In this document: positions 14,693-59,300 of the stretch, one piece after another
Layout of the letters: every line of letters begins with the position of its first letter
Numbering within the stretch: the stretch's first letter is position 1
Origin: Streptomyces formicae
GTDB taxonomy: Bacteria > Actinomycetota > Actinomycetes > Streptomycetales > Streptomycetaceae
Reading direction: 5' to 3'
Length of the DNA: 64,000 nucleotides
Assembly (NCBI RefSeq): GCF_002556545.1
Contig: NZ_CP022685.1
Span: forward strand, 6,240,001-6,304,000
Made by a program: the position numbers and the translations under genes
The notes under the pieces: model-generated
Seen by the model: only the letters and a program-made list of their open reading frames with translations
The model's database searches: none
What the model was told of the DNA's origin: nothing

Positions 14693-15538
14693 GTGAACCA
14701 GAGCGTCAAGTCTGCCGAGGTCGCGCCCGGGTCCCAGGAGGACCCGGCGCCGCACCTGAACGGAATCCCCGCGCAGCCCCCACCGGCGGACGGCCGCGTT
14801 CGAGAACGGGTGTACCGGGACGGTCCCGCACTCGCGCAACCGGAGCCTTCCGCGCACTCGGCGGACACGCGCGGGCGGACCGTCACCGCGGCGAAGCTCC
14901 GCCCCCGGCACCTCCTCCCCACCCCCAAGGGCACCCCCTTCACCTTCGTCTACGCCCTGGTCCTGGTGGCCACCTCCCTCCTCACCGAGTACGCCGACCC
15001 GGACCTCGTCTACTCGCTGCTCCAGGGCTCCAGCACGGACGTCACCAACCTCGCCCACGCGCCCGCCCTGGTCCTGGTGGCCAGCGCCCTGTGGATCGCG
15101 GGCGGCATCACCTCGCCGTACGCGATCGGCTTCCTGCTCGTCCTGACCGCGCTGGAACGCCGCATCGGCGCCTGGCGCACCGCGGGCGTCTTCCTGCTCG
15201 GGCACGGGGTCGCCACGCTCGCCACCGAGATCCCCGTCGGCCTCTCGGTCCTCGCGGGCCACCTGCCCGACAGCTCGCTGCACCGCCTCGACTACGGCAT
15301 CAGCTTCGGCGTGGCGGCCAGCGTCGGCGCGCTCGCGGGCCTGCTCGCGCCCTGGCTGCGCTGGATCGTCCTGGCCGGTTTCGGTCTGATGCTGATCGAC
15401 GACCTGGTGGCGTTCGCCGACCCGATGACGAACTGGGGCCACCTGCTGGCGCTCCTGATCGGCGTGGCCACCTGGCCCCTGCTCAGGCGCGCGCGTCAGT
15501 CGCGCGCCCCGTCGGGACGCGCCCCGCACGAGGCGTAG
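14693..15538 (+). CDS. Rhomboid-like multi-pass membrane protein
   Basis: This 281-residue protein starts at GTG 14693, preceded by GGAAGGAG. A disordered N-terminal 75 residues lead into about six transmembrane helices (FTFVYALVLVATSLLTEYA, AHAPALVLVASALWIAGG, PYAIGFLLVLTALERRI, and others). The arrangement is rhomboid-like: a candidate serine in ISFGVAASVGALAG and a candidate histidine in the last helix (NWGHLLALLIG). The canonical GxSG is not intact, so protease activity is doubtful. Its 3' end overlaps the convergent membrane-protein gene by 43 bp. Confidence 0.72.
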   Translation: MNQSVKSAEVAPGSQEDPAPHLNGIPAQPPPADGRVRERVYRDGPALAQPEPSAHSADTRGRTVTAAKLRPRHLLPTPKGTPFTFVYALVLVATSLLTEYADPDLVYSLLQGSSTDVTNLAHAPALVLVASALWIAGGITSPYAIGFLLVLTALERRIGAWRTAGVFLLGHGVATLATEIPVGLSVLAGHLPDSSLHRLDYGISFGVAASVGALAGLLAPWLRWIVLAGFGLMLIDDLVAFADPMTNWGHLLALLIGVATWPLLRRARQSRAPSGRAPHEA

Positions 15539-16128
15539 AGCGCGCCGCCGCAGACGAAGAGAGCCGCCGCCACCGCCCAGGCCGCGCCCTGCGGCCCCGG
15601 CTGCATCGCCCAGGCCCAGACGGCGGAGGACCCGCCGGGCCGCGCGGGCGCGGCGAGGTAGACCGCGCCCGCGTAAACGGTCACCGGCAGCCAGCTCAGC
15701 CGCGCGCCGATCAGCGCGGCCGCCCCGGCCGCGAGGCCCACGTCCCCGAGGACGTTGCGGACGACCGCGGCGGCGCCGAACCGGGCGGGGAACCCCGGCA
15801 GGGCGAGCGCGAGCAGCCCCGCCGCGAGCGCCGTGAGGGCCACGAGCTGGGCGGCGCGCCGCGGCCACCACGGTCGTACGGCCGTGCGGTCGAGCTCGTC
15901 GCTGTGGCTGTGCAGCCCGGTGCCGACGGCGGCGGCGACGAGGAGCGGGGCGAGCACGACGACGGGGACGCGGGCGTTGTTCCCGTAGCCGAGCCGCTCC
16001 TGGAGCAGGTGGCCGCCCCAGGCGGCGGCAGCGGCGGCGCACAGCAGGCTCGCGAGGGTGAGGGGGAGCGCCTGGGACCGTGCGTGCAGCAGCCGACCGT
16101 CGGCGCGGGCCGGGTGGCGGAGGTTCAC
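15496..16128 (-). CDS. Integral membrane protein, last gene of the sigma/ABC operon
   Basis: This 210-residue hydrophobic protein has about five or six membrane helices (LPLTLASLLCAAAAAAWGGHLL, VPVVVLAPLLVAAAVGTGL, and others). GTG 16128 overlaps the stop of the preceding permease (GTGA), so it is translationally coupled and probably a second subunit of the exporter. No family motif is recognised. It ends inside the convergent rhomboid-like gene. Confidence 0.7.
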   Translation of the reverse strand: MNLRHPARADGRLLHARSQALPLTLASLLCAAAAAAWGGHLLQERLGYGNNARVPVVVLAPLLVAAAVGTGLHSHSDELDRTAVRPWWPRRAAQLVALTALAAGLLALALPGFPARFGAAAVVRNVLGDVGLAAGAAALIGARLSWLPVTVYAGAVYLAAPARPGGSSAVWAWAMQPGPQGAAWAVAAALFVCGGALYASCGARPDGARD

Positions 16129-17459
16129 GGCGACGGCACCCGAGCGGCGTCGCAGCGGTCCGCGGCGAAGTACTCCGTGAGGAAGGCCGCCCGCTCCCGG
16201 GCGCCCAACGCCTCGATCTTCCGCAACTGGCGCTCCGCACCGGGCCCGTAGTACGCGAAGGACGGCGACGGCGCGAGCCACTGGATCACGGCGTCGGCGA
16301 TCTCCGTGGACCGCGTCGAGTAACCGCCCCCGTCCGCGCCCGGCGGGCACTCCTCGGCGAACAGCTCGCCGGCGACGGAGTTCGCGTACGCGGCGGGGTC
16401 GACGAGCCGGTCGCGCACCGAGGCGAGTTCCAGGTCGGCCAGGCGGGCCGTGCCCGCGGCGGTGCCCGAGCGGGGCGCGGGACGGCCGTCGGGCGACGTC
16501 TCCCAGGGCCCGCCGACGAGCCGTTCGGGCGCGCTTCGCACCCCGCGCAGCTTGGTGCGCAGGTCCGTCAGGGCCGCACCCACCTGGGGGAGCAGCCGCC
16601 GCTCGACACGGGTCACACACACTTTCGGGGCGCCGTCGTCGCAGACGAGTGCGGCCGCCGCGGGATCGGGGCGCCACAGACCTCCGCCGGTCTGTACGAG
16701 CAGTGCCGCGGCGCAGCCCGCGGCGGCGAGCGGGACGAGTGCGGTGGACCGTGTCCTGGCCGCGAGCAGCAGCAGCGCGCCGACCGCGAGCCCGGCCGTC
16801 CAGAGGGCGCTCACCGGGCCGAACCACCACACGGGGCGGTCCCAGTCGTAGCCGTGGTCGAGGGCGGGGGAGAGCAGGCTGAGGTGCGACGTGGTGTAGC
16901 TCGCCGAGCCGAGGACGACGTAGGCCGCCGCGGCGAGCAGCGGCGCGGTCAGCCGCCAGGGGACCACACGGCCCGCCACGAAGCCGAGGACGGCCAGCGC
17001 GCCGAGTGCCACCGCGTCCGCCATGAGCAGCGACAGGAACGGGCGGCCCGCGCTCGCGTACGGCCAGGTCGCCAGCAGGCAGCCGGTCGCGGCGACGAGA
17101 TGGCCCAGTACGGGCCAGCACACGGCGGGCGCCAGCGCGAGCAGGGTCTGCCGCAGCGGCGACCGGGGCAGCGACGCGCGCAGGGCGAGGGTGCCGCGGC
17201 GCCGCTCGCGGCCCCCGGTCCAGCAGCCCGTCGCGAGCGCGAGCGGCCCGCCGAGCAGCAGTCCGGCGGTCCGCAGCGAGTCCCCGGTCCTGGCCCAACT
17301 GCCCTGCCAGTCCTGGGCGTGGGTGCCCATGGCGAGGGCGACGACACCCAGCACGGCGAGGCCGGACCAGGGGCCGGGGCCGCGGCGGAGTTCGGCGGCG
17401 AGGGGGTGCGGGGTGCGGGGATGTGCGCCGTGGGGGCGTGTGGTGCGGGAAGTGGTCAC
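16125..17459 (-). CDS. ABC-2-type transporter permease / membrane protein with large periplasmic-side domain
   Basis: This 444-residue protein has about six to eight membrane helices in residues 30-260 (PWSGLAVLGVVALAMGTHA, AGLLLGGPLALATGCWTGG, VALGALAVLGFVAGRVV, and others). A C-terminal domain of about 180 residues has cysteines and probably lies outside the membrane. It is encoded directly after the ABC ATPase in the same operon and is the likely permease. GTG 17459 overlaps the stop of the last of three 53-codon ORFs produced by tandem amplification of the ATPase/permease junction. Its first 25 residues are therefore repeated three more times upstream. Confidence 0.78.
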   Translation of the reverse strand: MTTSRTTRPHGAHPRTPHPLAAELRRGPGPWSGLAVLGVVALAMGTHAQDWQGSWARTGDSLRTAGLLLGGPLALATGCWTGGRERRRGTLALRASLPRSPLRQTLLALAPAVCWPVLGHLVAATGCLLATWPYASAGRPFLSLLMADAVALGALAVLGFVAGRVVPWRLTAPLLAAAAYVVLGSASYTTSHLSLLSPALDHGYDWDRPVWWFGPVSALWTAGLAVGALLLLAARTRSTALVPLAAAGCAAALLVQTGGGLWRPDPAAAALVCDDGAPKVCVTRVERRLLPQVGAALTDLRTKLRGVRSAPERLVGGPWETSPDGRPAPRSGTAAGTARLADLELASVRDRLVDPAAYANSVAGELFAEECPPGADGGGYSTRSTEIADAVIQWLAPSPSFAYYGPGAERQLRKIEALGARERAAFLTEYFAADRCDAARVPSP

Positions 17460-17617
17460 TTTCGGGCTCCGGCGGTGGCCGTGCGGTGGTCCCTCAGGGC
17501 CGTTGTGTAGCCGCGCTCGATGGGGTTGGGGCTGGGGTCGGGGCGGAGTTCGGCGGCCGGGGGATGCGTGGTGCGGGGGCGTGCGCCGTGGGGGCGTGTG
17601 GTGCGGGAAGTGGTCAC
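17456..17617 (-). CDS. 53-codon chimeric ORF, copy 3 of tandem junction array
   Basis: It starts with GTG 17617 inside the stop of copy 2 and ends with TGA overlapping the permease start (GTG 17459). It encodes the permease N-terminus ([18 protein letters not shown]) fused to the ATPase C-terminus (NPIERGYTAALRNHRTATAG). It is probably an amplification by-product, but it would have to be translated for ribosomes to reach the permease by coupling. Confidence 0.4.
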   Translation of the reverse strand: MTTSRTTRPHGARPRTTHPPAAELRPDPSPNPIERGYTTALRDHRTATAGARK

Positions 17618-17775
17618 TTTCGGGCTCCGGCGGTGGCCGTGCGGTGGTTCCTCAGGGCTGCCGTGTAGCCGCGCTCGATGGGGTTGGGGCTGGGGTCGGG
17701 GCGGAGTTCGGCGGCCGGGGGATGCGTGGTGCGGGGGCGTGCGCCGTGGGGGCGTGTGGTGCGGGAAGTGGTCAC
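17614..17775 (-). CDS. 53-codon chimeric ORF, copy 2 of tandem junction array
   Basis: Same composition as copy 3: permease N-terminus joined to ATPase C-terminus. GTG 17775 overlaps the stop of copy 1, and its TGA overlaps the start of copy 3. No independent function is expected. Confidence 0.4.
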   Translation of the reverse strand: MTTSRTTRPHGARPRTTHPPAAELRPDPSPNPIERGYTAALRNHRTATAGARK

Positions 17776-17933
17776 TTTCGGGCTCCGGCGGTGGCCGTGC
17801 GGTGGTTCCTCAGGGCTGCCGTGTAGCCGCGCTCGATGGGGTTGGGGCTGGGGTCGGGGCGGAGTTCGGCGGCCGGGGGATGCGTGGTGCGGAGGCGTGT
17901 GCCGTGGGGGCGTGTGGTGCGGGAAGTGGTCAC
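17772..17933 (-). CDS. 53-codon chimeric ORF, copy 1 of tandem junction array
   Basis: GTG 17933 overlaps the TGA of the full-length ABC ATPase, so this ORF sits where the permease originally began. It reads GTRLRTTH where the other copies read GARPRTTH, so it has diverged a little. It ends with a TGA overlapping copy 2. Confidence 0.4.
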   Translation of the reverse strand: MTTSRTTRPHGTRLRTTHPPAAELRPDPSPNPIERGYTAALRNHRTATAGARK

Positions 17934-18721
17934 TTTCGGGCTCCGGCGGTGGCCGTGCGGTGGTCCCGCAGGGCCGCCGTGTAGCCGCGCTCGATGGGGT
18001 TGGCGCCGGGGTCGGCGTCGGGGGCGGCGGCACCGAGTTCCGTCAGGGCGGCGGGCGTGCCCCGGTAGGCGACCCGGCCCGACTCCATGAGGGTCACCTC
18101 GGTGCAGGCCGCGGCCACGTCCTCCACCAGGTGGGTGGAGACGATGACGGTGCACCCGGTGCCCAGCTCCCTCAGCAGCTCGCGGAACGCGACCCGCTGT
18201 TCGGGGTCGAGTCCGGCGGTCGGCTCGTCGAGGAGCAGGACGTCGGGGTCGTTCACGACGGCCTGGGCGATGCCGACCCGGCGGACCATGCCGCCGCTGA
18301 GGGTGCGCACCTTCGCGTCGATGCGGTCGGCGAGACCCACGCGGCGCACCGCGCGCTCCACCGCGGCCGCGGTGCGCTCGCTCGGCATCTCCTTCAGCCA
18401 GGCGACGTACGAGACGAACTCGCGCACGGTGAAGCCCGGGTAGTAGCCGAACTCCTGCGGCAGATAGCCGAGCCTGCGGCGGGCCGCCGAGCGCTCGCGG
18501 TGGCCGGTCATGTCCTGGCCGAACAGCTCGACGCGGCCGCCGTCCGGTTTCGCGACCGTCGCGAGGACGCGGATCAGGGAGGTCTTGCCCGCGCCGTTCG
18601 GGCCGAGCAGGCCGTGCACCCCGGTGCCGAAGTCCAGGTCGACGGCGTCCAGGGCGAGGGCCTTGCGGTGGCGGACGGTGAGTCCGGTGACGCGGGCCGC
18701 GCCGGGGGCGGGGTGGTTCAC
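17930..18721 (-). CDS. ABC transporter ATP-binding protein
   Basis: This 263-residue ATPase has Walker A (GLLGPNGAGKTSLIR, about residues 37-52), Q-loop (LGYLPQEFGYYPGFT), signature (VRTLSGGMVRRVGIAQA), Walker B (DVLLLDEPTAGLDPEQR) and switch histidine (VIVSTHLVED). It belongs to the ABC-2 exporter type that pairs with two membrane subunits. GTG 18721 overlaps the stop of the zinc-finger membrane protein (GTGA). Its 3' end is the source of the repeated 158-bp units. The substrate is unknown; the operon position under an ECF sigma factor suggests an envelope-stress or antimicrobial role. Confidence 0.93.
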   Translation of the reverse strand: MNHPAPGAARVTGLTVRHRKALALDAVDLDFGTGVHGLLGPNGAGKTSLIRVLATVAKPDGGRVELFGQDMTGHRERSAARRRLGYLPQEFGYYPGFTVREFVSYVAWLKEMPSERTAAAVERAVRRVGLADRIDAKVRTLSGGMVRRVGIAQAVVNDPDVLLLDEPTAGLDPEQRVAFRELLRELGTGCTVIVSTHLVEDVAAACTEVTLMESGRVAYRGTPAALTELGAAAPDADPGANPIERGYTAALRDHRTATAGARK

Positions 18722-19590
18722 GGCTTCTCCAGGTCGAAGGAGTGGCGGCGCAGGGCGAGCAGGGCCGCGCCGAGGACGGCCGCGGCGGCCCAGCAGCTCT
18801 GGGCTCCGGGGCCCGCGAGGTACTGGGCGAGTTGCCGGTTCAGTGCGGTGACGGGGAGCACCCCGGTCCCGCCGTCGGGCCCGGCGAGCACCGGGGCGAG
18901 CACCGCGAGGAGCCACCCGGCGGCGACCGTCGCGGTGGCGGCGCGGCAGCCCACGTACGAACCGAGCACCAGGGCGGCCACCGTCAGGGCGAGCCCCGGC
19001 AGCAGCCAGGCGGCGGGACCCGGTGCGCCGCCCGTGCCGGGCGCCGCGGCACCGGCGGCGGTGAGCAGCGGCAGGCTCACGGCGAGCACGGCGAGGGTCC
19101 TGGTCAGGAGCAGCCGGAGGCCGCCCGACGGGGTGGAGGCGGCGAGCTCGTGCACGGGATCGGCGTGCGGACCGTAGGAGACGGCGACGCCCACGAGCGG
19201 CAGGACGGGGGAGAGCGCGAGCAGCAGGGTGCGCGCTCCGTGGAACCCCGTCGCGTACGCCAGCCCGACGGCCCCCGCGCACACCGTCACGAGCGCGACG
19301 AGCCAGGGCCCCCGCAGCGCGGGCCCCACGGCCCGGAACACCTGCCAGGAGCCGGGGAGGGGGGAGGGGGCCGGGCTCTCGGCGGACCCCTGTACCGCCG
19401 AGAGCACCGCCCCCCTGACGGCCGCCAGGTCCGGGCCCGAGGGCCCACGGCGGACCGCGCCGGTCACCAGGGGCGCGCAGCGGCCGCAGACCTCCACGTG
19501 CTTCTCCAGTGACCACGCGTCGGTGTCGGGCAGGTCGCCCGCCGCGTACCGGGCCGCGTTCGCGGCCGTCACGTGCCAGGTCGTCGTCAT
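18718..19590 (-). CDS. Zinc-finger (zf-HC2, anti-sigma-like) domain fused to ABC-2-like membrane domain
   Basis: This 290-residue protein begins with a ZAS/zf-HC2-type segment (YAAGDLPDTDAWSLEKHVEV then CGRC), with the H-x3-C-x2-C signature near residues 28-35. About six membrane helices follow (WLVALVTVCAGAVGLAYATG, LLLALSPVLPLVGVAVSYG, and others). The zinc finger suggests it holds the ECF sigma factor encoded just upstream, while the membrane part resembles an ABC-2 permease. ATG 19590 overlaps the sigma stop (ATGA). The fusion would put the sigma factor at the transporter. Confidence 0.78.
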   Translation of the reverse strand: MTTTWHVTAANAARYAAGDLPDTDAWSLEKHVEVCGRCAPLVTGAVRRGPSGPDLAAVRGAVLSAVQGSAESPAPSPLPGSWQVFRAVGPALRGPWLVALVTVCAGAVGLAYATGFHGARTLLLALSPVLPLVGVAVSYGPHADPVHELAASTPSGGLRLLLTRTLAVLAVSLPLLTAAGAAAPGTGGAPGPAAWLLPGLALTVAALVLGSYVGCRAATATVAAGWLLAVLAPVLAGPDGGTGVLPVTALNRQLAQYLAGPGAQSCWAAAAVLGAALLALRRHSFDLEKP

Positions 19591-20171
19591 GTCAGTCCTC
19601 CCAGGGCATCGCCGCCGGAGGCGAGGTGGGCCAGGGCTTCGCGCAGCTCGCGGCGGGCCCGCATGGCCCTGGTCTTGACCGTGCCCTCGGGTATCCCGAG
19701 CAGGTGCGCGGCCTCGCGGGTGGTCAGGCCGTCGACGACCGTGGCGCGCAGCACCTCGCGCAGCTCGGGGGAGATCCGGTCGAGCGCGGTGCCCACGTCC
19801 GCGTACTCCAGCCCGGCCAGCACGTGTTCCTCGGCGGAGGGCGCGAGCGCGGGGGGCTGGGCGAGGGCCGAGGGCGTCCGCGGCTGTGCGCGCCGCGCGT
19901 CCACCAGGCGGCGCGCCGCGATCACCCACAGCCAGCCGCCCGCCTCCCCGCCCCGGTGCGAGCCCGCCGACCGCCACACGGTCATGAAGGTGTCCTGGAG
20001 TACCTCGCGTACGACGTCGGGGTCGCCGCAGCGCCGCGCGAGGCGCGCGTACAGCCATCCGGCGTGCCGGTCGTAGAGCGCGGCGAGCGCCTGCGCGTCG
20101 CCCTCGGCGACGGACCGCAGCAGCGCCGCGTCGTCGTCGCGGTCGGCCCCCATGGGGCGGAACAGTCTCAC
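19587..20171 (-). CDS. ECF-type RNA polymerase sigma factor
   Basis: This 194-residue protein has region 2 (LLRSVAEGDAQALAALYDRH, VVREVLQDTFMTVWRSA) and region 4 (ISPELREVLRATVVDGLTTR, then EAAHLLGIPEGTVKTRAMRA). The linker is Ala/Pro-rich. It is the first gene of a five-gene operon with an anti-sigma-like membrane protein, an ABC ATPase and two permease-type proteins. GTG 20171 is chosen for the GGGAGGG just upstream; the in-frame ATG at 20153 has no ribosome site. It probably directs its own operon in response to a signal at the membrane. Confidence 0.9.
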   Translation of the reverse strand: MRLFRPMGADRDDDAALLRSVAEGDAQALAALYDRHAGWLYARLARRCGDPDVVREVLQDTFMTVWRSAGSHRGGEAGGWLWVIAARRLVDARRAQPRTPSALAQPPALAPSAEEHVLAGLEYADVGTALDRISPELREVLRATVVDGLTTREAAHLLGIPEGTVKTRAMRARRELREALAHLASGGDALGGLT

Positions 20172-20296
20172 GCCCTCCCTATCGGGCGTTCGCCGCCCGG
20201 CGGTTCACGGGAGCGGACCGCCGCCCGTCGCGGAGGAGATTTCGCTGATCGCTCACAGCGAACGCGCCCCGGGGAACATCCCGAAGCTCATAAGCA

Positions 20297-20315
20297 TTGA
20301 GTCGGTATAGCTCAA
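20297..20315 (+). promoter_or_regulatory. HAIR-like HspR operator at the lon promoter
   Basis: TTGAG (20297-20301), nine bases, CTCAA (20311-20315) matches the core of the HAIR element (CTTGAGT-N7-ACTCAAG). It overlaps a TATAGC -10-like hexamer (20306-20311) and lies 23 bases before the lon ATG. lon is an established member of the HspR/HAIR heat-shock regulon in Streptomyces. Confidence 0.75.
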
Positions 20316-20337
20316 CTTGAATGCCGAAGGGGAGATC

Positions 20338-22749
<2,412 letters not shown>

Positions 22750-56316: not shown

Positions 56317-59300
56317 TCAGCGGCCGTGGTCACGCAGCCGCCCGAGCCGCTCGCGGTCACCGCGCAACTCGGCCCGCAGGAGCCGGGACAGGGGCGCGAC
56401 GAGCCGCCGGGCGAGCTCGTCGATCTCGGCGGGGGCGGGCGGCTCCGGGGACGAGGGACCGGACTCGGAGGCCCCGACGGGTGCCGCCGCCTTGGGCGCG
56501 GCGCCGGTGCTGGACTGCTGGCCGCCGTGGTCGGCGGGGGCGGTGCGCTGGACGGGTGCGGGGCGCTGGGGCGCGGGGGCGGGCGCGGGTGCGGGTGCCG
56601 GGGCCGGCGGGGGCGGCGGCGCGGGAGCGGGCGTGGGGGCCGCCGCGCGCCGCTGGACGGTGGGGCGCACGGGGGCCGGTGCCGGGGCGGGCACGGCGGG
56701 GCGCGCGGGCGCCTGGGCCGCGTGCCTGGCCAGGGGTACGACGACGGGGGCCGCGGCGTGGAAGGGCGTCGCGGCGGACCGCTGGAGGGGCACGGGGGCG
56801 GACGCTGCCGCCTGTGCAGGTGTGGTGCTCTTCGGAGATGCGGGAGATGCGGGAGATGCGGGAGATGTGGGAGGTACGGAGGGCGCGGGTCCGGAGTCGT
56901 CCGGCGTCGGGACCGCGAGTCCCCGGGAGGAACTGAGCGGCAGCGGACGAGGACCACCGAGGCCGCCGGGCCGGTAACTCCCGGGTGCGATGCGCCGGTT
57001 GACGGGCACGACGGGGAGGGGCCGGGGGAGGGGCTTGGGGGCGGGCGCGGTCACCGGTGCGGGTGCCTCCGCCGATGCGGGCGTGGGCGGGGGCGTGGGC
57101 ATGGGCAAAGGCGTGGCTGTCGGCACCGGCGGGTCCGCGGGGGCGGGCGCGGGTGCTTCGGCCTTGGCCGCGGCCCGCTGCACGGGGGCGGAGGTCTCCG
57201 GGGGCGTGACGGGCGCGCCGATCGGGCTGCGGCGAGAGCCTGCCTTGCTGCTGGGCGCGGGTGCGGGCGGGGCCGCGGGCGCGGGGCCGCTGGTGGGCAC
57301 CTCAGCGAGAGGCGAGCCGAGTCCCGTACGGGGACGTCCCTTGGCGGCGGCGGCAGCGCTGCCGCCCCCGTCGGGCTTGCGCTGGATCCGGCGAACCGGG
57401 GCCCGACGCTGCACGGACGGAACGGGGGTAGTACCCGCCCGTGCAGCGACGGGACCCGCCGCCTCGGACGCGCTCGCGGACGTGCGAGCGGTCCGGGTCT
57501 GCGTCCCCGGACCGGCCGGGGGAACCGGCCCGGGGACTTCGGTCGGCCCGGAGGGGGCCGGGTCTGAGGGGGCCATCGCGGGGGCGGAGCTTGCGGCGGG
57601 CACGGCGGGCACGGTGGGCACCGAGCCGACGGGGAACAACCGCCGCTGAGGCTCCACGGGCGGCGTCGCGGAAACCAGCGGCGACCGCTTCACGGGCATC
57701 CGCTGCACGACGGGAACGGCCGGTCCGAGCGCCTGAACGTCCGCGTCGGACAGCGGAGTCAGCCGGGGCCCGGGGCCTTCGCCCGAGGGCGCGCTCGCGC
57801 TGCGCTGTACGGGGGACGAGCCCTTGTCGGCCGTACGGGCTTCGCCTGCCGGGGAGTTGTCCGCGCCGGGCACGGAGAGGGACCGGTCACCGGCGAGTGG
57901 CGCGGTGCGCCCGGGACGGTCGGACCCGCCCGTACGGACGGGAGCGGGTGCGGACGTGGCGGGAGTTCCGGAAGGGTCGGGAGTTCCGGAGGGTCCGGGC
58001 GTACGGCTGGGAGTGCGTGTTCCGGAGTCGCGCGGCACGGCGGCGGTGCGCTGGACGGCGGGGCTGGCGCCCGACGAGGCGCGCGGCGCGGGCGCGACAG
58101 GGGTCCCGGACGGACCCGAAGTCCCGGACGTACTCGGGGCCTTGGGTGAGCCGGGCGTCGCGGAAGGGCCGTCGGTCGCGGGCGGGTTGAGGGGGACGAC
58201 CGGTCCCGAGGTCCTGGACGGGCCAGGAGCGCTGGACGAGTCGGATGGGCTGGACGGGTTCCCGGTCCTGGCCGACCTGGCGATCGTGGGCGGACCGGAC
58301 GCCGCAGACGGGCCACCCGCCCCGGTCGGGCCCGAAGTCCCGGACTGGACGGGCCCCTTGGCAGGACCGCTGCTCCTGGAGGGGTCGGAAGACAAGGGCC
58401 GGTGGGCAGGTGCGGACGGACCGGGTCCCGTGGCGGGGCCGGGTGCCGACGGCTTGGAGGCGCTGGACGGGCCAGGCGTTACGGGCAGCCCTGATGCCCC
58501 GGACTGGGCGGGCCTCTTGGCGGGGCCGGAGGCCGGGGCCTGCCCGGAGCTCTTGGACGGGTTGGAGGTCGAGGGCGGCTGGGTAGCGCCGGTCGGGCCA
58601 GGAGCCACGGGCAGCCCCGAGGTCCCGGACGGACCGGTCCCCTTGGCGGGACCTGAGGCCGGGGCTGGACCGGAGCCCTTGGCGGGGGCGGAAGCCGAGG
58701 GCGGCTGAGTAGCGCCGGTCGGGCCAGGAGCCACGGGCAGCCCCGATGCCCCGGACTGGCCGGGCCCCTTGGCGGGGCCGGAGGCCGAGGCCGGACCGGA
58801 GCTCTTGGACGGGTTGGAGGTCGAGGGCCGCTGGGTAGCGCCGGTCGGGCCAGGAGCCACGGGCAGCCCCGATGCCCCGGACGGACCGGTCCCCTTGGCG
58901 GGACCTGAGGCCGGGGCCGGACCGGAGCCCTTGGCGGGGGCGGAAGCCGAAGGCGGCTGGGTAGCGCCGGTCGGGCCAGGAGTTACGGGCAGCCCTGATG
59001 CCCCGGACTGGCCGGGCCTCTTGGCGGGGCCGGAGGCCGAGGCCGGACCGGAGGTCCTGGACGGGTCGGAGGACAAGGGCCGCTGAGACGTCCCGGACTG
59101 CCCCGGCCCCTTGGACGAGCCGGAAGCGGCGGACCGCTCGGCGCCCCCGGACGGACCGGGAGTCACGGCAGCCGGTCCCGAAGCCCCGGACGTACGGGAT
59201 GCCGTGGACGACCCCGAAGCCCCGCTCGCCCCCGGACCCCTGCCCGGCGCCGAAGCCGCACCGGGCGCGGGAGCAGCCTTGGACGACCCCGAAGCGGCCC

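Follow-up and report, generated by a model that had tools for sequence, protein, structure and literature searches.

Here, we found that the junction between an ABC transporter ATPase gene and its permease-like partner in Streptomyces formicae is multiplied into a tandem array, each unit of which reads, in this order, ATPase frame end, GGAG, seven bases, GTGA and permease frame start, such that three mini-ORFs stand in an unbroken chain of overlaps between the two genes. Smaller chains of the same kind recur at a few orthologous junctions, and the duplicated units recovered by a scan made without a frame condition all share one length class modulo three. The window, i.e. the whole stretch of 64,000 nt that was analysed, belongs to a source assembly of one 9,611,874-base contig (completeness 100, contamination 0.57).

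The junction array and its gene row

The earlier note on this DNA had described a 158-bp junction unit present about 3.9 times, and this was borne out by TRF, which reported a period of 158 with 4.1 copies, 95% matches, 0% indels and a score of 1152. The array and the genes around it are arranged as follows.

19587..20171, minus strand: ECF-type sigma factor at the head of the gene cluster (Sigma70_r4_2, E 4.7e-13; Sigma70_r2, E 6e-10)
18718..19527, minus strand: upstream gene, 269 aa, GTGA overlap with the ATPase start (from sequence)
17930..18721, minus strand: ABC transporter ATPase (ABC_tran, E 3.1e-31), GTG start overlapping the upstream stop, C-terminal NPIERGYTAALRDHRTATAGARK within the first repeat
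17370..18015, minus strand: tandem array of the 158-bp unit, 4.1 copies, junction duplication (TRF)
17505..17892, minus strand: perfectly periodic core, 230 nt identical at shift 158 (sequence self-comparison)
17941..17944, minus strand: GGAG, 7 nt before GTG 17933 (from sequence)
17783-17786, 17625-17628 and 17467-17470, minus strand: GGAG before the next three junctions, same 7-nt spacing
17772..17933, minus strand: mini-ORF 1, 53 codons, permease-like head and ATPase-like tail (ORF reading)
17614..17775, minus strand: mini-ORF 2, 53 codons (ORF reading)
17456..17617, minus strand: mini-ORF 3, 53 codons (ORF reading)
16125..17459, minus strand: membrane-protein-like partner, 444 aa, GTG start overlapping the last mini-ORF stop (from sequence)
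15496..16128, minus strand: next gene, 210 aa, GTGA overlap with the permease stop, also downstream of the array (from sequence)

The four GTGA junctions at 17933, 17775, 17617 and 17459 lie in identical 27-nt contexts. The ATPase ends at the first of them, where mini-ORF 1 begins; this in turn stops 53 codons on at 17775, and the chain continues by way of 17617 until the permease starts at 17459, all by 4-nt overlaps, with 53 codons plus a stop in each mini-ORF. The claim that every copy re-creates the stop/start coupling and that three mini-ORFs result thus held. A stop is present in every frame through 17370-18015, which ruled out that the array is one long repeat protein made by read-through.

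Positions 17892-17735 are exactly the same as 17734-17577. When each unit is taken from one GTG to the next, copies 1 and 2 differ by 2 bases, copies 2 and 3 by 4 bases and copies 1 and 3 by 6 bases. The statement that copies 2 and 3 are identical is therefore correct in the former register and fails in the latter. The match at shift 158, exact over 230 nt, shows the last expansion to be recent, which agrees with the recent expansion proposed earlier as far as the last round is concerned.

Compared with the real genes, the unit shows 8-10 differences from the permease head in its first 83 nt and 5 from the ATPase tail in its last 75 nt. The unit is a fusion of the permease head with the ATPase tail, and this supports a duplication of the ATPase/permease junction, and with it the tandem amplification that had been suggested, as the origin. 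A join in codon phase together with the 4-nt overlap gives a unit length of 2 mod 3; at such a length neither the ATPase nor the permease is interrupted, and the extra DNA forms a mini-ORF reaching from one GTGA to the next. The earlier note had explained the chain by 158 not being divisible by three. Coupling is indeed rebuilt at each copy, but the true condition is a length of 2 mod 3, as a length of 1 mod 3, which is not divisible by three either, would break the rebuilding. A second long tandem array in the window, at 58460-59085, consists of 126/252-bp units (5.0 or 2.5 copies), which are multiples of three, and is probably an in-frame coding repeat.

GTGA overlaps are also present at the ATPase start (18721) and at the start of the next gene (16128), so that at least four genes form one coupled row, which stands behind the gene of the ECF-type sigma factor. 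We call the partner at 16125..17459 permease-like on account of its position; one of its homologues carries the source label 'ABC transporter permease', and the nearest ones are 67% and 64% identical. The product of the upstream gene, with a Cys/His-containing N-terminus followed by hydrophobic segments, appears anti-sigma-like by reading of its sequence, without a family match. Neither the permease nor the genes flanking the ATPase/permease pair matched a family in Pfam or NCBIfam, and Rfam at the gathering threshold gave no match within 15000-20500.

Mini-ORF chains at orthologous junctions

Is the chain a peculiarity of a single locus? Permease searches gave a match in 88 of 392 Streptomyces genomes (E <= 0.001) and in 55 of 394 genomes from the family (E <= 1e-30). 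With a permease alignment as query, 93 relatives were found among named GTDB contigs, of which the best 80 of 93 were kept, while a single-sequence permease query against named genomes yielded 32 pattern matches, none of them confirmed. Of the resulting 208 loci (L021-L228), 5 had no ATPase match; the 203 analysed contained 135 distinct junction sequences. This comparison, which had been proposed as a check, revealed a plain NTGA overlap in 122 of the 135 and a perfect mini-ORF chain in seven, the window locus among them. Judged by this count, the plain overlap is the ancestral state. Additional genome sets, mostly already covered, showed no new junction kind. The junctions that depart from the plain overlap are:

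G000 (window locus): perfect chain, 53, 53 and 53 codons
L032, S. gardneri: perfect chain, 15 codons
L119, S. tanashiensis: perfect chain, 15 codons
L123, S. narbonensis: perfect chain, 38 codons
G323: perfect chain, 22 codons
G015: perfect chain, 12 codons
G705: perfect chain, 31 codons
L039/G203: mini-ORF of 57 codons, closed not by NTGA but by a TAG that lies about 11 nt into the permease
L109/G391: repeated junctions, chain broken; genome 55% complete, permease in three pieces
L108: frameshifted permease
L139: run of N at the junction
L167: overlap as GTGCTGA
L188: normal ATGA junction behind a frameshifted ATPase

In the clearest chains (L032, L035 and L123) the mini-ORF is permease-like at its start and ATPase-like at its end. 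The mini-ORFs of the relatives measure 12-38 codons and share little beyond these ends. At L109, several copies of a junction-like motif occur at spacings of 38 and 80, and a separate scan pointed to a low-complexity 24-bp repeat (0 mod 3) across the ATPase/permease junction of L024.

A tree was built from 133 of the 135 junction sequences (two were too short), and several of its nodes are weakly supported. The nine loci with mini-ORFs, including L039 and L109, require 7 changes on it; in 300 label shuffles the number averaged 8.8 and never fell below 7. The trait thus scatters nearly like random labels, which implies repeated gain or loss. Two pairs of tree neighbours, L032 and L123 (15 against 38 codons) and L119 and L034 (G323; 15 against 22 codons), differ in mini-ORF length and keep both overlaps.

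At the border of the permease and the next gene, a duplicated junction was found in 2 of 100 loci. S. olivaceoviridis (L187) has a single 12-codon mini-ORF there, originating from a 35-bp duplication. S. dysideae RV15 (L169) has two coupled 32-bp units, i.e. 11-codon mini-ORFs, and behind them three 33-bp units that stay in frame and extend the next protein, whereby the array changes from 2 mod 3 to 0 mod 3. This locus holds two solutions, each keeping the downstream gene readable. In S. actinomycinicus (L173), the start region at the same border is present twice in frame (GTGACGACGACC), as an N-terminal extension instead of a mini-ORF.

How common are such arrangements elsewhere? We surveyed 1.6 Mb of the source chromosome with crude gene calls based on GC-by-codon-position rules, which makes all rates rough. 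A total of 150 direct NTGA pairs stood against 26 gene pairs with some mini-ORF chain, hence coupled mini-ORFs are not rare in themselves; in those 26 pairs the first and the last junction agree at no more than 24 of 42 bases. In a junction-repeat scan of the same chromosome, 365 NTGA gene ends yielded 3 cases, whose first lengths are 27, 20 and 15. Compared with this rate, repeats at ATPase/permease junctions are somewhat enriched (6/133 versus 3/365, Fisher p = 0.013) and the three junction kinds pooled are not (8/344 versus 3/365, p = 0.13); both tests are a rough guide, because one genome is set against many. Two loci in the stretch 4240001-5840000 of the source genome (G000) were recorded besides. 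At minus-strand index 47159 of the joined sequence, a 20-bp unit recurs at shifts 20, 40 and 60 at the end of a coding-like ORF, each copy with GTGA or similar and no clear gene coupled behind it. At plus-strand index 1017733, an 8-codon mini-ORF lies between two ATGA overlaps that join two coding-like genes; the overlaps are alike in 24 of 42 bases and perhaps represent a decayed 26-bp junction duplication.

Unit lengths and the proposed passage of ribosomes

To avoid circularity, the junctions were scanned without a frame condition: any further copy of the 30-nt junction window that lay downstream and contained an NTG was counted, at a threshold of 20/30 matches. The scan detected 6/133 ATPase/permease, 2/100 permease/next and 0/111 upstream/ATPase junctions; the chains of G323 and G705 are decayed and fell below the threshold. 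The first units of the eight loci are 158, 44, 35, 38, 44, 113, 32 and 35 nt long, and all eight lengths are 2 mod 3. Controls comparing each locus with other loci gave 5/660, 12/493 and 7/546 at 20/30, and 3/661, 4/494 and 0/552 at 22/30. The permease/next count of two is not above its control at 20/30, and both cases therefore rest on their high matches (29 and 27 of 30).

We consider coupling-permissive junction duplication the best overall explanation, with a probability of roughly 0.6. According to this explanation, a first tandem duplication of the ATPase/permease junction would have fused the head of the permease and the tail of the ATPase in codon phase, and two further rounds would have led to three mini-ORFs. 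Ribosomes leaving the ATPase would then travel along the chain by termination-reinitiation and reach the permease and the gene behind it; alternatively, they may open the RNA and allow initiation at each junction's own ribosome site. Either way, the mini-ORFs, which we infer to be translated, would carry ribosomes across a 474-nt insert that otherwise separates ATPase and permease, and the peptides themselves probably do nothing. That genes overlapping by -4 nt are translationally coupled is firmly established. In reporter experiments in E. coli and H. volcanii, strong coupling was reported at -4 nt and hardly any at a distance of tens of nt, with 15 nt of the upstream gene being enough for it (PMC10666635); PMC6728339 is cited alongside for coupling in E. 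coli. Due to this steep fall with distance, ATPase and permease would be expected to lose their coupling if the 474 nt between them were untranslated. On this explanation, insertions would survive where the frame permits coupling, which would account for the recurrence within one operon family.

The main competitor, which we hold to be unlikely but well worth weighing, is that the duplications are neutral and coupling is irrelevant: the permease would initiate alone at 17459, and the 2 mod 3 lengths would reflect nothing but codon-phased microhomology at the breakpoints. The predicted unpaired fraction is 0.30, 0.32 and 0.32 at the first three junctions and 0.45 at 17459, i.e. the permease start is predicted to be slightly more open than the other three, and in orthologous permease starts (60 of 129) it averages 0.33. 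As GGAG stands 7 nt before every GTG, independent initiation at the permease GTG is possible, and the four restarts that the earlier note demanded of the ribosomes may not be needed. A ribosome site was recognised by the same motif test at 119 of 129 permease starts but not at the first junction of G705. With respect to the lengths, the probability that seven of seven fall in the 2 mod 3 class is 0.0005 under p = 1/3. Microhomology alone makes such joins likelier than 1/3: in the 122 plain junctions, exact 4-8 nt microhomologies between permease head and ATPase tail fall into the 2 mod 3 class at a frequency of 0.39-0.65. The probability of seven out of seven then becomes 0.0015-0.051 for ATPase/permease junctions, and 0.13-0.28 with 10-nt microhomologies (4, 18 and 16 cases across three window sizes), so that codon phasing explains part of the pattern. 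The observed eight of eight nevertheless demands a strong phase bias, and microhomologies of 4-6 nt put the seven at 0.007 or less. The persistence of both overlaps in the two neighbour pairs with different mini-ORF lengths likewise speaks against the neutral reading. Since phase bias also yields 2 mod 3 joins, selection for coupling behind these lengths is supported by the sequences, but not proven.

Could the array instead be an adaptive rheostat, in which recombination alters the copy number and, with each step passing a fraction of the ribosomes, sets the ATPase:permease ratio? The 230 identical nt and three near-identical units make copy-number change plausible, and the permease and one further gene lie downstream of the array. 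Most orthologues, however, lack an array altogether, as the prevalence of plain overlaps shows, and we regard a rheostat as improbable. No other strain with a different copy number was found among the genomes searched, in which no close strain was met (nearest homologue 67% identical).

An assembly artefact hiding a single junction in the living strain is very improbable, given six differing positions in a pattern unlike assembly stutter, a contig that is a complete single chromosome, and similar small arrays in other, separately sequenced species. Least credible of all are functional small proteins, e.g. competitors bearing an ATPase C-terminal motif: NPIERGYTxALRxHR does occur in each mini-ORF, as at the ATPase C-terminus of many orthologues, but four residues vary among the three peptides and one of the six variable bases is silent, the mini-ORFs of relatives have other lengths and little in common, and a search of mini-ORF 1 against about 5.8 billion proteins returned no homologue, upon which it was rejected as a protein family.

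Relation to MIRU repeats and other coupled systems

Coupled junction duplication can be set beside three known systems. The mycobacterial MIRUs, e.g. in the senX3-regX3 intergenic region, are likewise short tandem units between operon genes with small ORFs and -4 nt overlaps; a 2025 review describes them as apparently mobile repeats that insert at start codons with their own ORF coupled at -4 nt, which probably limits the harm to the gene (PMC12548453). Their reported unit sizes are 77 and 53 bp (PMC4213456, PMC2453075), and the ETR-D/MIRU04 spacer contains 1-7 copies of the 77-bp unit, varying by strain (PMC2453075). By our own arithmetic, 77 and 53 are both 2 mod 3, like 158. The array resembles them in its tandem units, with four GTGA overlaps and three mini-ORFs. 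In contrast, MIRUs, to which we compare it by description, are interspersed and occur in many mycobacteria, whereas here the unit is built from the flanking genes, as the small differences from permease head (8-10 of 83 nt) and ATPase tail (5 of 75 nt) indicate. A blastn search of 17300-18100 against its own genome returned the locus itself and two weak partial hits, over 43 and 31 bases of the query. Thus, the array is MIRU-like in its working yet no MIRU, because it is made of its neighbours and a second copy was not found in the genome.

Like a bicistronic design, in which a short ORF hands ribosomes to the next gene whose ribosome site sits inside it (PMC12548453), the mini-ORFs precede a gene to be translated; the array is natural, placed mid-operon and threefold, while the design has an engineered short leader ORF. 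The likeness to ordinary termination-reinitiation coupling lies in the exact -4 nt overlap at all four junctions, each with GGAG at the 7-nt spacing inside the upstream ORF. This overlap is reported as the commonest spacing among co-directional genes (PMC12548453, PMC10666635). The ordinary case has one junction, while the array multiplies the junction itself. In the open-access literature, to which our search was confined (subscription papers, including the 1997 MIRU paper, lay outside its scope), we found no account of junction-duplication arrays in Streptomyces. What is new here, as judged from the sequences compared, is a locally born array and its recurrence in one Streptomyces operon family.

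NTGA overlaps can be seen as self-compatible duplication points, since a copy of 2 mod 3 length adds a coupled mini-ORF and breaks neither gene. Tentatively, and with the odds rather against the idea in full, we speculate that 'junction satellites' of Streptomyces operons arise repeatedly, expand like MIRUs and serve as evolvable dividers of ribosome flow, and that the MIRU class possibly began in this way and then spread. The array suggests a route by which MIRU-like arrays could begin without a mobile element. Overall, the array has the look of an accident that densely packed bacterial genes suffer repeatedly and tolerate; the mycobacterial MIRU repeats are a comparable case. The pattern of lengths modulo three represents a natural genetic test of coupling that is applicable to any genome collection. 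Moreover, the passage of ribosomes from gene to gene is usually studied with engineered constructs, and this operon family supplies a series made by nature, in which the number of inserted coupled ORFs is 0, 1, 2 or 3.
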